A stretch of 64,000 nt of DNA from assembly GCA_028693165.1 (NCBI GenBank), contig JAQUVX010000001.1, positions 186,001-250,000 of the forward strand, read 5' to 3'. The position numbers and the translations under genes were made by a program. The first letter of the stretch is position 1, and every line of letters begins with the position of its first letter. Shown here in pieces: positions 562-3,945 of the stretch. Origin of the DNA: Lachnospiraceae bacterium (GTDB lineage Bacteria > Bacillota > Clostridia > Lachnospirales > Lachnospiraceae). The notes beneath the pieces were generated by a model, which made no database searches, was not told where the DNA came from, and worked only from the letters and a program-made list of their open reading frames with translations.

Positions 562-1452
562 TCAAGTGTTTTTCACAACACTTGCGCCGGAAAGCTTCTC
601 ATAAAATTTCACGATAGAAGCATGATCCTCTTTCTCGCAGCCCTCTGCTCTCAAAAACTGCATGGTTTCCATCAGCTGCGCTGTCAAAGGTGCCGGAGCG
701 CTGATCGCATGTGCTGCATTCAATGCGTTGGTCAGATCCTTGATGTGCAGCTCGACGCGGAAACCAGGCTTATAATTGCCGTCCAGCATCATCGGGGCCT
801 TTGCATCCATAACCGTAGAGCCAGCCAGACCGCCACGAATTGCCTGATAAACCAGCTCCGGATCTGTACCTGCCTTTTTCGCAAAGGTCAACGCCTCCGA
901 CACGGCGGCGATATTGATTGCAACCACCATCTGGTTTGCCAGCTTTGCCACATTGCCGGAGCCAAGTTCCCCCACGTATACCACGGAACCGGCCATCACC
1001 ATCAGCATCTCATAATATTTGTCAAATAATTCTTTCTTACCGCCGCACATGACCGACAGAGTTCCATCGATGGCCTTTGGCTCTCCACCGGATACCGGGC
1101 AATCCATCATATCCATATTCTTCTTTGCCAGTTCCGCGCCGATCGCCTTCGATTCGGTTGGATCGATGGAGCTCATATCGATCACGCAGGTTCCTTCCTT
1201 CGCCCCTTCCACAACGCCGTCTTCGCCGAGAACCGCAGCTCTCACATGCGGAGAGTTCGGAAGCATGGTTATGATCGTATCGCATTCCTGCGCTATTTCC
1301 CTGCCGCTGTTTGCAGCCTTCGCGCCTGCTGCCACAAGCTCTGCTATCGTGTCCTCATGATGGTCAAATACCACCAGCTCATACCCTGCTTTTAACAGAT
1401 TCAAAGACATTGGCCTGCCCATAATTCCCAATCCGATAAATCCTATTTTCAT
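562..1452 (-). CDS. garR: 2-hydroxy-3-oxopropionate (tartronate semialdehyde) reductase
   Basis: A 296-residue beta-hydroxyacid dehydrogenase that should reduce tartronate semialdehyde to D-glycerate with NAD(P)H in glycolate, glyoxylate or sugar-acid breakdown. The N-terminus has the Rossmann motif GFIGLGIMGRPMS. Further on are the substrate-binding DCPVSGGEPKA stretch and the catalytic-lysine region GSGNVAKLANQM, in the order and length (about 295 residues) of GarR/GlxR. The frame stays open 27 codons further upstream, but ATG 1452 gives the family N-terminus and has AAAGGTGG in front. No glycerate kinase or glyoxylate carboligase is next to it, so a 3-hydroxyisobutyrate-type substrate remains possible. 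A promoter is visible at 1496-1524. Confidence 0.85.
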   Translation of the reverse strand: MKIGFIGLGIMGRPMSLNLLKAGYELVVFDHHEDTIAELVAAGAKAANSGREIAQECDTIITMLPNSPHVRAAVLGEDGVVEGAKEGTCVIDMSSIDPTESKAIGAELAKKNMDMMDCPVSGGEPKAIDGTLSVMCGGKKELFDKYYEMLMVMAGSVVYVGELGSGNVAKLANQMVVAINIAAVSEALTFAKKAGTDPELVYQAIRGGLAGSTVMDAKAPMMLDGNYKPGFRVELHIKDLTNALNAAHAISAPAPLTAQLMETMQFLRAEGCEKEDHASIVKFYEKLSGASVVKNT

Positions 1453-1495
1453 AATGATTTCCACCTTTCTGGAAAGAAATTTTGTGTTTATCTGT

Positions 1496-1524
1496 ATTAT
1501 AGAAAATCCCAGCATTTCTTGCAA
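1496..1524 (-). promoter_or_regulatory. Sigma-A type promoter for garR
   Basis: On the minus strand TTGCAA, a 17-nt spacer and TATAAT. The -10 box lies about 45 nt upstream of the garR start codon. Confidence 0.55.
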
Positions 1525-1699
1525 TAGGCGCATGTACCAAATATCAGTTCAATATCTGTATTTTAAAACGATGACAAAATCTCCTGTCGCGGGCTCCTTC
1601 TGTATAGGGACAAGCTTTTGCAGTATCGTATCCTTTCGGTACTTGCGTTTGCATGCAGATCCGTATAGCACATATACTATACACACCACAAAAAATCTA

Positions 1700-1728
1700 T
1701 TGACTCTTTGTAGTCTTTAGAGTATACT
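1700..1728 (+). promoter_or_regulatory. Near-consensus promoter for the small RNA and abiF-like gene
   Basis: TTGACT (1700-1705), a spacer of exactly 17 nt and TATACT (1723-1728). Transcription should begin near 1735, directly in front of the two hairpins and about 95 nt before the Abi_2 start codon. Confidence 0.75.
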
Positions 1729-1734
1729 ATTTGC

Positions 1735-1799
1735 AGTGGTTGTGCTACGTTGCTTGTGAGGCGCGTAGCCCAGTGGAGTCCGTGCGCGGGCTCCTTTTT
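1735..1799 (+). ncRNA. Two-hairpin small RNA upstream of the AbiF-like protein (candidate abiF RNA)
   Basis: Hairpin 1 pairs GCTACG (1744-1749) with CGTAGC (1764-1769). Hairpin 2 pairs GGAGTCC (1775-1781) with GGGCTCC (1788-1794; one G-U pair) around a 6-nt loop and is followed at once by five T, so it looks like an intrinsic terminator. CAGTGG occurs twice, before each hairpin. A strong promoter precedes it, and the HEPN-type Abi_2 gene starts 30 nt after the T run. A conserved structured RNA ahead of Abi_2/AbiF genes is known (abiF RNA motif); I matched position and architecture, not a covariance model. It probably makes a short RNA, with read-through into the protein gene. Confidence 0.65.
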
Positions 1800-1828
1800 C
1801 AATCTAAACGAAATAGCAGGAGTTGCCA

Positions 1829-2761
1829 ATGACAAAATCATTTTTAACTTATAAAGAACAATTATGTAAATTAGTGAATGAGAAACAGCTGTCTGTTCCA
1901 AATCAGGAATATGCCATAGAGATCTTGGAGCAATTAAGCTACTATTCTCTCATCGGAGGATATAAAGATTTATTCAAACATTCATCTGGGAAATATAAAT
2001 ACGGTGTGACTTTTGATGAACTGGTGGCACTTTACTATTTTGACGAAGAGCTCCGTACACTTTTCCTAAAATACATCCTTCATGTAGAACGTCATATGAA
2101 ATCCATCATTTCTTATTACTTCTGTGAAAAATATGGATATGATCAAAATGCATACCTAAACACCTCTAACTACACGTTAACCAATAAAAATTCCATGGAT
2201 ATCAATAAACTCATATACTCTCTACAGAAAACCATTTCCCTTCCAAGTCACTATGCTTATATAACACATCATTCGAGAAAATATGGCAATGTTCCTTTGT
2301 GGGTGGCCGTGAATGCCATGACATTTGGACAAGTATCAAAATTGTATCAGTATATGACCAACGACGTTCAGTATAAAATCAGCAGAAAATTTCCGCACAT
2401 GACAGAGCGACAACTTCACCAGTTTATAACCGTAATCGCCCGTTGTCGAAATGTTTGCGCTCATGGTGAACGTCTATATTCTTTTCATATTCGTGAAACA
2501 ATTCCTGACACTATATTACATAGGAAACTTTGTATTTCTCAGAAAAACGGACAATATTCTTCCGGAAAGCAAGATCTTTTTTCCATTGTAATTGCACTTC
2601 GCTATCTCATAAGCAATTCCGAATTTCAAACATTCAAAGCCAGTCTTACTAAAAACATCAATCATGTACTTAAATGCTGTCCTCACTTAACGGAGGCACA
2701 ACTATATCGCGGAATGGGCTTTCCCATGAACTGGAAAGCAATTACAAAATTCCGAAAGTAG
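1829..2761 (+). CDS. abiF: Abi_2 (AbiD/AbiF-like) HEPN-domain protein
   Basis: A 310-residue member of the Abi_2 family of abortive-infection proteins. The N-terminus (MTKSFLTYKEQL...) and the block YSLIGGYKDLF are typical. The HEPN RNase-type motif R-x4-H is present as RNVCAH at residues 207-212, so metal-independent RNA cleavage or RNA binding is likely. ATG 1829 is chosen over an in-frame TTG at 1823 because AGGAG sits six bases before it. The gene follows the small RNA at 1735-1799 and its promoter, and is AT-richer than the sugar operons around it, which fits horizontal acquisition. By analogy with known AbiF loci the RNA would hold the protein in check or guide it. Family assignment is good; toxicity or phage defence is inference. 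Confidence 0.8.
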   Translation: MTKSFLTYKEQLCKLVNEKQLSVPNQEYAIEILEQLSYYSLIGGYKDLFKHSSGKYKYGVTFDELVALYYFDEELRTLFLKYILHVERHMKSIISYYFCEKYGYDQNAYLNTSNYTLTNKNSMDINKLIYSLQKTISLPSHYAYITHHSRKYGNVPLWVAVNAMTFGQVSKLYQYMTNDVQYKISRKFPHMTERQLHQFITVIARCRNVCAHGERLYSFHIRETIPDTILHRKLCISQKNGQYSSGKQDLFSIVIALRYLISNSEFQTFKASLTKNINHVLKCCPHLTEAQLYRGMGFPMNWKAITKFRK

Positions 2762-3040
2762 TAATGTTATAATATAAAAAGGACTTTGCCCCTCTTCCGA
2801 TACCATACCCAAAGATGTCATTTCGATTTTCTCATCGGTATAAAACAATCACAATGATTGCCGTATGTCCGCCTGATAAAGATCCAACTATAAACTCATT
2901 TTCCGCATCAGCACAAAAATTTCAGAATTCCATGCCTAAAATTGTATTGTAAATCCGTAAACAATATGGTATCCCGGCCGCATTTAGAAAGAAGTCTTTT
3001 ATTTTCATAAAGATCTACGTTTATTGTTTCGATGTTTAAA
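2762..3040. other. AT-rich intergenic stretch without a supportable gene
   Basis: Only a 45-codon open frame (2815-2952, plus strand) with no ribosome binding site and no recognisable product is present. The stretch separates the abiF-like unit from the convergent DUF6282 operon. Confidence 0.5.
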
Positions 3041-3068
3041 CGGCAGTTCAGGATATCCTGAGCTGCCG
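3041..3068 (-). terminator. Hairpin downstream of the DUF6282 gene
   Basis: CGGCAG-TTCAGG and CCTGAG-CTGCCG pair as a 12-bp stem (one wobble) around ATAT, ten bases after the stop of the minus-strand gene. The following T run is weak (TTTAAAC), so termination efficiency is uncertain. Confidence 0.5.
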
Positions 3069-3078
3069 CCGAAAAAAA

Positions 3079-3945
3079 TCACTCTGTCATTCCCAAAACT
3101 TTTTTAGGATTATCGTGTGTCATCTTATATATTTCATCATAAGTTAAACCACAATCCAGCATAGCATCCATAAACATCATCATTCCCTCGGCTGGATACT
3201 CCACTCCTGCCTGCCCGCGGTCTGTAGCCATATAACAGTTTTCGGCTCCAAGGTCCTGTATTGTTTTAGCCATGTATTCCGATGTGACATGATTTATTCC
3301 AATATCAAACCATAATTTTTCCACCATAACGCCTTGCGATACCAAAGATTTCTGAACATCTACCGGCAAGGTTGTACAAGTCCAGTCCGGATGCGTCAAA
3401 ACTGTTCGAATACCTTTTTCTCGTGCCGCCGTGCACACGGCAATGGACTCCCCAATACTGATATGTCCGGTTGCGACAGTCGCATCATATTCTTTTATGT
3501 AATCCAGACATACAAGCACTTCCGGCTTCAGCATGCCTTCCTCATCCAGAAGACGAATTCCAGGATGAGCCAAATTCTTATCTCTGCCAAAATACTCTAT
3601 CTGATTGCGAGCATGAAGCGTCGGCATCCAGATCACTTTGGCTCCCATTTGCAGATAATACTTGACTGCAATCGGATTGAGACCACCAATAGATAAATTC
3701 AGCACAGCCGAACTATATGCCTTGGCACTATACCTGCCGGATGTATTTATTATAATCGCTCTGGCCGGGGTAGGATCTAAATGATTTTTCAGCATGACCC
3801 CCGCCATTCCATACTGGTCTGCCTGCTTCAGCAACTCATCGTCATTAAGCGAGCGTTTGACAAAATCCGGTGACGTATGAGTGTGAAGATCATATGCGCC
3901 CTTCATCAGAGCAAAAACCTCTTCCGCATGTTTGGGATTGTACAT
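3079..3945 (-). CDS. DUF6282 family metal-dependent hydrolase (PHP/amidohydrolase-like)
   Basis: 288 residues. The N-terminal DLHTHTSPD motif (residues 19-27) and later His/Asp clusters (ATGHIS, LTHPDW, ATDRGQ) are the metal ligands expected of a PHP or amidohydrolase-type TIM barrel, and the whole reads as the uncharacterised DUF6282 family. The substrate is unknown. AAGGAG precedes the ATG. It is the last gene of an apparent operon with an SLC13 transporter 41 nt upstream and a serine hydrolase before that; a divergent LysR gene starts at 6402. The context suggests a cytoplasmic hydrolase acting on an imported organic acid, lactone or amide. Confidence 0.7.
   Translation of the reverse strand: MYNPKHAEEVFALMKGAYDLHTHTSPDFVKRSLNDDELLKQADQYGMAGVMLKNHLDPTPARAIIINTSGRYSAKAYSSAVLNLSIGGLNPIAVKYYLQMGAKVIWMPTLHARNQIEYFGRDKNLAHPGIRLLDEEGMLKPEVLVCLDYIKEYDATVATGHISIGESIAVCTAAREKGIRTVLTHPDWTCTTLPVDVQKSLVSQGVMVEKLWFDIGINHVTSEYMAKTIQDLGAENCYMATDRGQAGVEYPAEGMMMFMDAMLDCGLTYDEIYKMTHDNPKKVLGMTE

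Follow-up and report, generated by a model that had tools for sequence, protein, structure and literature searches.

R1, a two-hairpin RNA upstream of an AbiF-type HEPN protein gene, as the candidate antitoxin of a probable chromosomal toxin-antitoxin unit in a Lachnospiraceae bacterium

Does an AbiF-type gene that follows a promoter and two small hairpins form an RNA-protein defence unit, and if so, which RNA is its partner? This question is raised by a locus in a 64,000-nucleotide (nt) stretch of a Lachnospiraceae bacterium genome (GCA_028693165.1, contig JAQUVX010000001.1, forward strand positions 186,001 to 250,000), hereafter the window, to which all positions refer unless a locus is named. 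An earlier sequence-only reading of positions 1700–2761 proposed that an AbiF-like HEPN protein and a two-hairpin RNA form a candidate toxin-antitoxin or defence unit, and our comparative analysis supported an RNA-HEPN pairing of this type. We consider the locus likely to be a chromosomal type III toxin-antitoxin unit built on AbiF, with an RNA family of its own, which we call R1.

A conserved two-hairpin RNA ahead of an Abi_2 gene

The gene at 1829–2761 on the + strand has an ATG start and was assigned with Pfam, PADLOC and alignment to an AbiF-type HEPN protein of 310 amino acids. It matched Pfam PF07751 (Abi_2) with 163.7 bits (cut-off 25.6) and the PADLOC AbiD model with 225.4 bits, and it had no NCBIfam match at E ≤ 1. 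The R207-x4-H212 motif pointed out earlier was confirmed as the HEPN motif R207-N-V-C-A-H212 (RNVCAH), in which R207, N208, C210, A211 and H212 were invariant across 26 aligned proteins (alignment A2, which omits L037 and L045, both with internal stops). This protein is probably an RNA-cutting defence toxin.

Upstream of this gene lies R1 (1735–1799, + strand), an RNA of approximately 65 nt with a predicted 5' end at A1735, delimited by alignment A1 and covariation, in which the two hairpins and T run of the sequence-only reading were indeed present. Hairpin 1 (1744–1769) consists of a lower stem, for which the window has five of six consensus pairs and a gap at the sixth, and of an apical C-U-[UGUG]-A-G-G in the consensus register. 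Hairpin 2 (1772–1796) carries a UGCG loop closed by a G-C pair inside a C-G pair and doubles as the hairpin of an intrinsic terminator (terminator-like site at 1775–1794 followed by TTTTT; T run at 1795–1799). The segment 1734–1800 folded with -28.7 kcal/mol (z -2.66), and three of 200 shuffled sequences reached energies as low.

Alignment A1 contained 44 RNAs, 41 of them distinct. The tandem copies of L008 were left out of it, as were L001 and L002, which duplicate the window, and L017, which the pattern did not pick up and the model recovered later. Across this set, 96.7% of cells paired and changes on both sides were seen in 15 of 17 pairs, with 142 both-side-changed cells relative to 39.5 in shuffles (0 of 500 as high) and to no more than 25 in slid controls, which, unlike the shuffles, preserve ancestry. 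The loop of hairpin 1 was YGNG in all 44 RNAs, and that of hairpin 2 was UGCG in 34 and UUCG in 2 of the 44. The two apices look alike, with a near-invariant C-G pair closing both, to which hairpin 2 adds a covarying pair, and these loops (C-N-[YGNG]-N'-G) resemble UNCG loops. No variable guide segment was seen in the alignment. R1 is a real, conserved structured RNA; its model scored the window copy at 63.1 bits, the window being one of the 44 rows from which the model was built. The proposal that the RNA neutralises or guides the protein gained comparative evidence for an antitoxin-like RNA, while its guide half found no variable segment on which to rest.

The near-consensus promoter noted earlier (1700–1728, + strand; -35 TTGACT, 17-nt spacer, -10 TATACT) was located by promoter scan. 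Considered alone, such a match was within chance (11 sites found, cf. 9.5 ± 3.1 in shuffles), yet its placement was kept in relatives. A score of at least 9/12 was found ahead of 43 of the 46 R1 copies that precede an intact Abi_2 gene, with the best score before these 46 copies averaging 9.98 compared to 6.63 in shuffles. The end of the -10 element lay 6 or 7 nt ahead of R1 in 43 of 45 promoters scoring at least 8, and the spacer was 17 nt in all 12 of the promoters listed. The scan found no further + strand promoter-like site between R1 and the Abi_2 gene, which has a ribosome binding site (AGGAG, 1818–1822, + strand, read directly from the sequence) 6 nt before its ATG.

Association of R1 with one Abi_2 clade and its distinction from RF03085

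R1 accompanied 46 of 52 relatives, 44 recognised by pattern and two (L017 and L026, the latter with R1 downstream of the gene) by the model. These 52 are the relatives in which the N-terminus was found (L027 and L056 were left out for want of it), and they include some near-copies or the same species from two collections. Across 299 genomes of the bacterial family, 34 of 35 Abi_2 matches of at least 175 bits with an N-terminus had R1, which was upstream in 33 and downstream in two, one having both (in G190 it was solely downstream), whereas none of the 20 more distant matches listed had it. The 175-bit cut was set after the table was seen, and the list of 55 matches was compiled manually. It excluded pieces lacking an N-terminal match, among them three of at least 175 bits (G156:C13, located at a contig end, and G076:C95 and G205:C17, both with R1) and weaker ones with R1, e.g. 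G097:C9, G205:C32, G136 and G147, that were tallied as broken or partial among the R1 copies; at least three of the 35 are themselves broken or cut (G122, G174 and G130).

In a tree of 103 proteins (of 112, after removal of near-copies), the 61 R1-linked proteins fell on one side of one branch, with a Shimodaira-Hasegawa-like approximate likelihood ratio test (SH-aLRT) value of only 79. Proteins linked to the Rfam abiF RNA (RF03085) were separate from them (11 rows vs 61), 13 of 24 RF03085 loci having no usable Abi_2 protein for the tree. The 31 rows labelled 'none' lacked R1, and nine of these were tested for RF03085, at the gathering score only. Abi_2 genes at greater distances have RNAs of other or unknown kinds.

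R1 also occurred outside the family, elsewhere in its order and class (presumably Clostridia, by their names), and at 9 of 66 viral-contig loci. One culturable carrier is Blautia caecimuris DSM 29492 (L035). R1 flanked the Abi_2 gene on both sides in L004, L038, L044 and L282, of which L038 and L044 come from one isolate and L282, with copies at 232–298 and 1322–1388, is a scaffold submitted as that of a faecal phage. At L008:248–381, two tandem R1 copies preceded one Abi_2 gene, an arrangement reminiscent of type III repeat antitoxins.

The sequence-only reading had suggested a check against the Rfam abiF RNA model, and identity with that RNA was not supported. The RF03085 model had no match at E ≤ 10 in window positions 1600–1900 and none in the loci of 15 relatives or in the source genome, and the window copy of R1 matched nothing in Rfam 15. 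Applied to phiC2 as a positive control, the RF03085 model found both of its motifs ahead of the AbiF gene (37.6 and 19.5 bits); PMC12373285 reports both for RCd22. Placing R1 under RF03085 was therefore rejected. Among the 299 genomes, RF03085 had 23 matches in 20 genomes under stricter filters, which lost a weak G042 match seen otherwise, and by coordinate comparison none of the 23 lay at an Abi_2 gene of the R1 clade. The earlier reading named a missing model match combined with missing covariation as counting against it; the Rfam match was absent and covariation was strong, so this combination did not arise. Rfam matches to Atu_C8 below threshold overlapped R1 in 2 of the 15 relatives' loci (L016, 29.4 bits, E 0.086; L028, 26.5 bits, E 0.5; gathering score 50) and were attributed to chance. 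Separately, an RF03085 match at L062:1441–1540 had, by eye, a second similar hairpin directly upstream.

Toxin-gene loss and the proposed mechanism

At a model score of at least 40 bits, the 299 genomes held 71 R1 copies, of which 31 had an intact Abi_2 gene downstream (including the two tandem L008 copies). The remainder had Abi_2 upstream only (2), a broken or partial gene (11), a tiny remnant (1), no Abi_2 found (23) or a contig edge (3), such that an intact Abi_2 gene was absent for 35 of 71. Wider samples added 30 copies (15 intact downstream, 0 upstream only, 3 broken or partial, 1 remnant, 10 none and 1 edge). In both samples together, the gene started within 14–47 nt of R1 in 42 of the 46 copies with an intact one downstream, and 14 broken or partial genes and two tiny remnants lay right behind R1; in L107, L148 and L177, called as having none, the apparent first Abi_2 codons were still there by eye. 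Of the 33 copies for which no Abi_2 was found, 18 kept a promoter scoring at least 9/12. Solitary R1 RNAs had 94.6% of cells paired, a value biased upward by the picking of these copies with the model. The RNA outlives the toxin gene, and a toxin gene of this clade that is seldom without its RNA, together with an RNA that is often without the toxin gene, is the pattern expected of a toxin and its antitoxin. One could speculate that recombination between R1 copies flanking a gene deletes the toxin and leaves a single RNA.

Under this toxin-antitoxin reading, a single promoter would drive both R1 and AbiF, with transcription mostly stopping at hairpin 2 to release the predicted short RNA, and occasional read-through would supply the mRNA for the putative AbiF ribonuclease. 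R1 would bind the HEPN homodimer, probably via its two similar apical loops, and block or mask a ribonuclease site made of R207 and H212 from both protomers, so that hairpin 2 would serve as terminator and antitoxin element simultaneously. If the supply of R1 dropped, e.g. because a phage had switched off transcription in the host, unbound AbiF would be expected to cut RNA and halt growth. A more specific proposal, which we offer tentatively and regard as rather doubtful, is that R1 constitutes an undescribed antitoxin family, a single RNA of which would clamp the HEPN dimer through two UNCG-like loops. Since the second of these lies in the terminator, terminating would itself make the antitoxin, and solitary R1 kept after toxin decay would shield the cell against AbiF carried on phages or mobile DNA.

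Three other explanations were weighed against these data. The hairpins could act solely in cis as an attenuator of AbiF transcription, with termination relieved by a phage factor, as might be suggested by a terminator-like hairpin 2 directly ahead of the gene and by the C. difficile RNA, which acts in cis too according to PMC12373285. R1 was, however, also found downstream of the gene, and 35 of 71 copies had no intact Abi_2 gene at all, which makes attenuation alone unlikely. The R1 loops (UGCG in 34 of 44, YGNG in all 44) are also more conserved than terminator function should require. If R1 were instead a mobile or selfish RNA that spreads independently and merely tends to sit near Abi_2, its solitary occurrence in many contexts, 18 of 33 with the promoter, and the four loci where R1 flanks the gene would be accommodated. 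This seems highly improbable given that R1 accompanied 34 of 35 close Abi_2 matches vs none of the 20 more distant listed, that 42 of 46 copies with an intact gene downstream have it within 14–47 nt, and that 14 broken or partial genes and two tiny remnants follow R1; this pattern suggests that the toxin was lost and not that the RNA was gained. We give almost no credence to an RNA-guided nuclease, in which R1 would carry or accept a guide and send AbiF to a target RNA as a CRISPR RNA does for Cas13; its approximately 65 nt are mostly conserved hairpin with no variable single-stranded segment, and R1 is often without an intact nuclease gene.

Several observations weigh against the toxin-antitoxin reading itself. 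Six relatives at 30–32% identity (L049–L054, from Bacilli, Erysipelotrichaceae and 'Tenericutes' records) lacked R1, as did G084:C18, an Abi_2 match of the R1 clade. The apical pairs of hairpin 1 had no covariation support, one never varying and the other being U-A in 35, U-G in 3 and unpaired in 3 of 41, and the minimum-energy fold of the window closes this apex differently from the consensus. In the reverse test, the R1 model had no match to phiC2 or to three RF03085 loci; with no match either way between R1 and the C. difficile RNA model, the mechanism is borrowed through protein homology and layout. Fragmented genomes may exaggerate loss of the toxin gene, and solitary R1 could mean a role apart from AbiF, with 5 of the 33 copies without Abi_2 preceding a zeta-toxin-like gene. 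L049 and L050 also lacked RF03085 at the gathering score.

The zeta-toxin-like neighbours (L100, L113, L143, L144 and L153; two genera) had R1 approximately 215 nt ahead, with an open reading frame of approximately 60 codons between in four of the five and the usual promoter absent; the L100 gene, the one tested, matched Pfam PF06414 with 26.5 bits. R1 has possibly been adopted there by another toxin-antitoxin operon. A single replacement effector behind solitary R1 was rejected, as there was no one partner gene, although the zeta-toxin-like gene recurs.

Genomic setting and comparison with known systems

The Abi_2 gene is the sole Abi_2 match in the source genome (assembly 94% complete), and the window R1 is its only convincing copy there (next best E 0.02). 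Metabolic genes on the opposite strand lie closest to the unit and encode, by Pfam, a dehydrogenase, a DUF6282 protein and a CitMHS transporter. For the DUF6282 and the hydroxyisobutyrate dehydrogenase gene, 26 genomes each were searched; no empty insertion site was found, as DNA similarity stopped at the dehydrogenase gene in the 11 dehydrogenase loci compared. A search for attachment sites found no tRNA gene in the window, and positions 1440–3100 held no long flanking repeat. Elsewhere, a fluoride riboswitch (RF01734, 48.7 bits) at 459–536 on the - strand precedes a - strand open frame at 1–411 that runs off the window and is antiporter-like by eye.

The protein family and the principle of an RNA antitoxin are already known. 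No earlier description of R1 was found in the literature searched, and the PbAbiF paper (Zilberzwige-Tal et al.), outside that search, might contain it. A second RNA family on the same protein family, unseen by the model of the first, shows either strong divergence or a rebuilding of the partnership between AbiF and its RNA. This bears on AbiF as a proposed ancestor of Cas13, for which the change of the RNA partner from inhibitor to guide is described as an open question in PMC12737573. At approximately 65 nt, R1 is also a very small candidate natural inhibitor for structural work, its many solitary genes permit a direct test of RNA anti-addiction, and its covariance model would annotate RNAs missed by Rfam 15.

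Relative to Cas13, the window protein, of 310 amino acids, has one Abi_2 domain rather than two HEPN domains and has an RNA with no guide segment seen, and no CRISPR repeat array was found in 1440–3100, the stretch searched. In ToxIN-like type III systems, the RNA antitoxin gene lies upstream of a ribonuclease toxin gene with a terminator between, and the antitoxins are made of tandem repeats, although not universally. The locus studied here is similar in that a structured RNA and a terminator directly precede the toxin gene, which is seldom kept without its RNA gene (34 of 35, as above), and it differs in the HEPN fold and in having one R1 copy without repeats (two in L008). RF03085 is likewise a small structured RNA beside Abi_2 genes, yet it does not match R1 and its Abi_2 proteins are separate in the tree. 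In PbAbiF-AbiFr (PDB 8vz6), each monomer of the dimer carries one copy of the RNA, two in total, by the accounts in the review PMC12737573 and in PMC12373285; the two similar loops of R1 would, by contrast, make one RNA per dimer possible. The C. difficile AbiF-RCd22 system (PMC12373285) shares with the window locus an Abi_2 HEPN toxin with an R-x4-H site, an upstream RNA with two hairpin motifs, a shared promoter and a terminator before the gene. The window AbiF is 26% identical to the phiC2 copy, and RCd22 has RF03085 motifs with a separate terminator, whereas R1 has its terminator built into the second hairpin.
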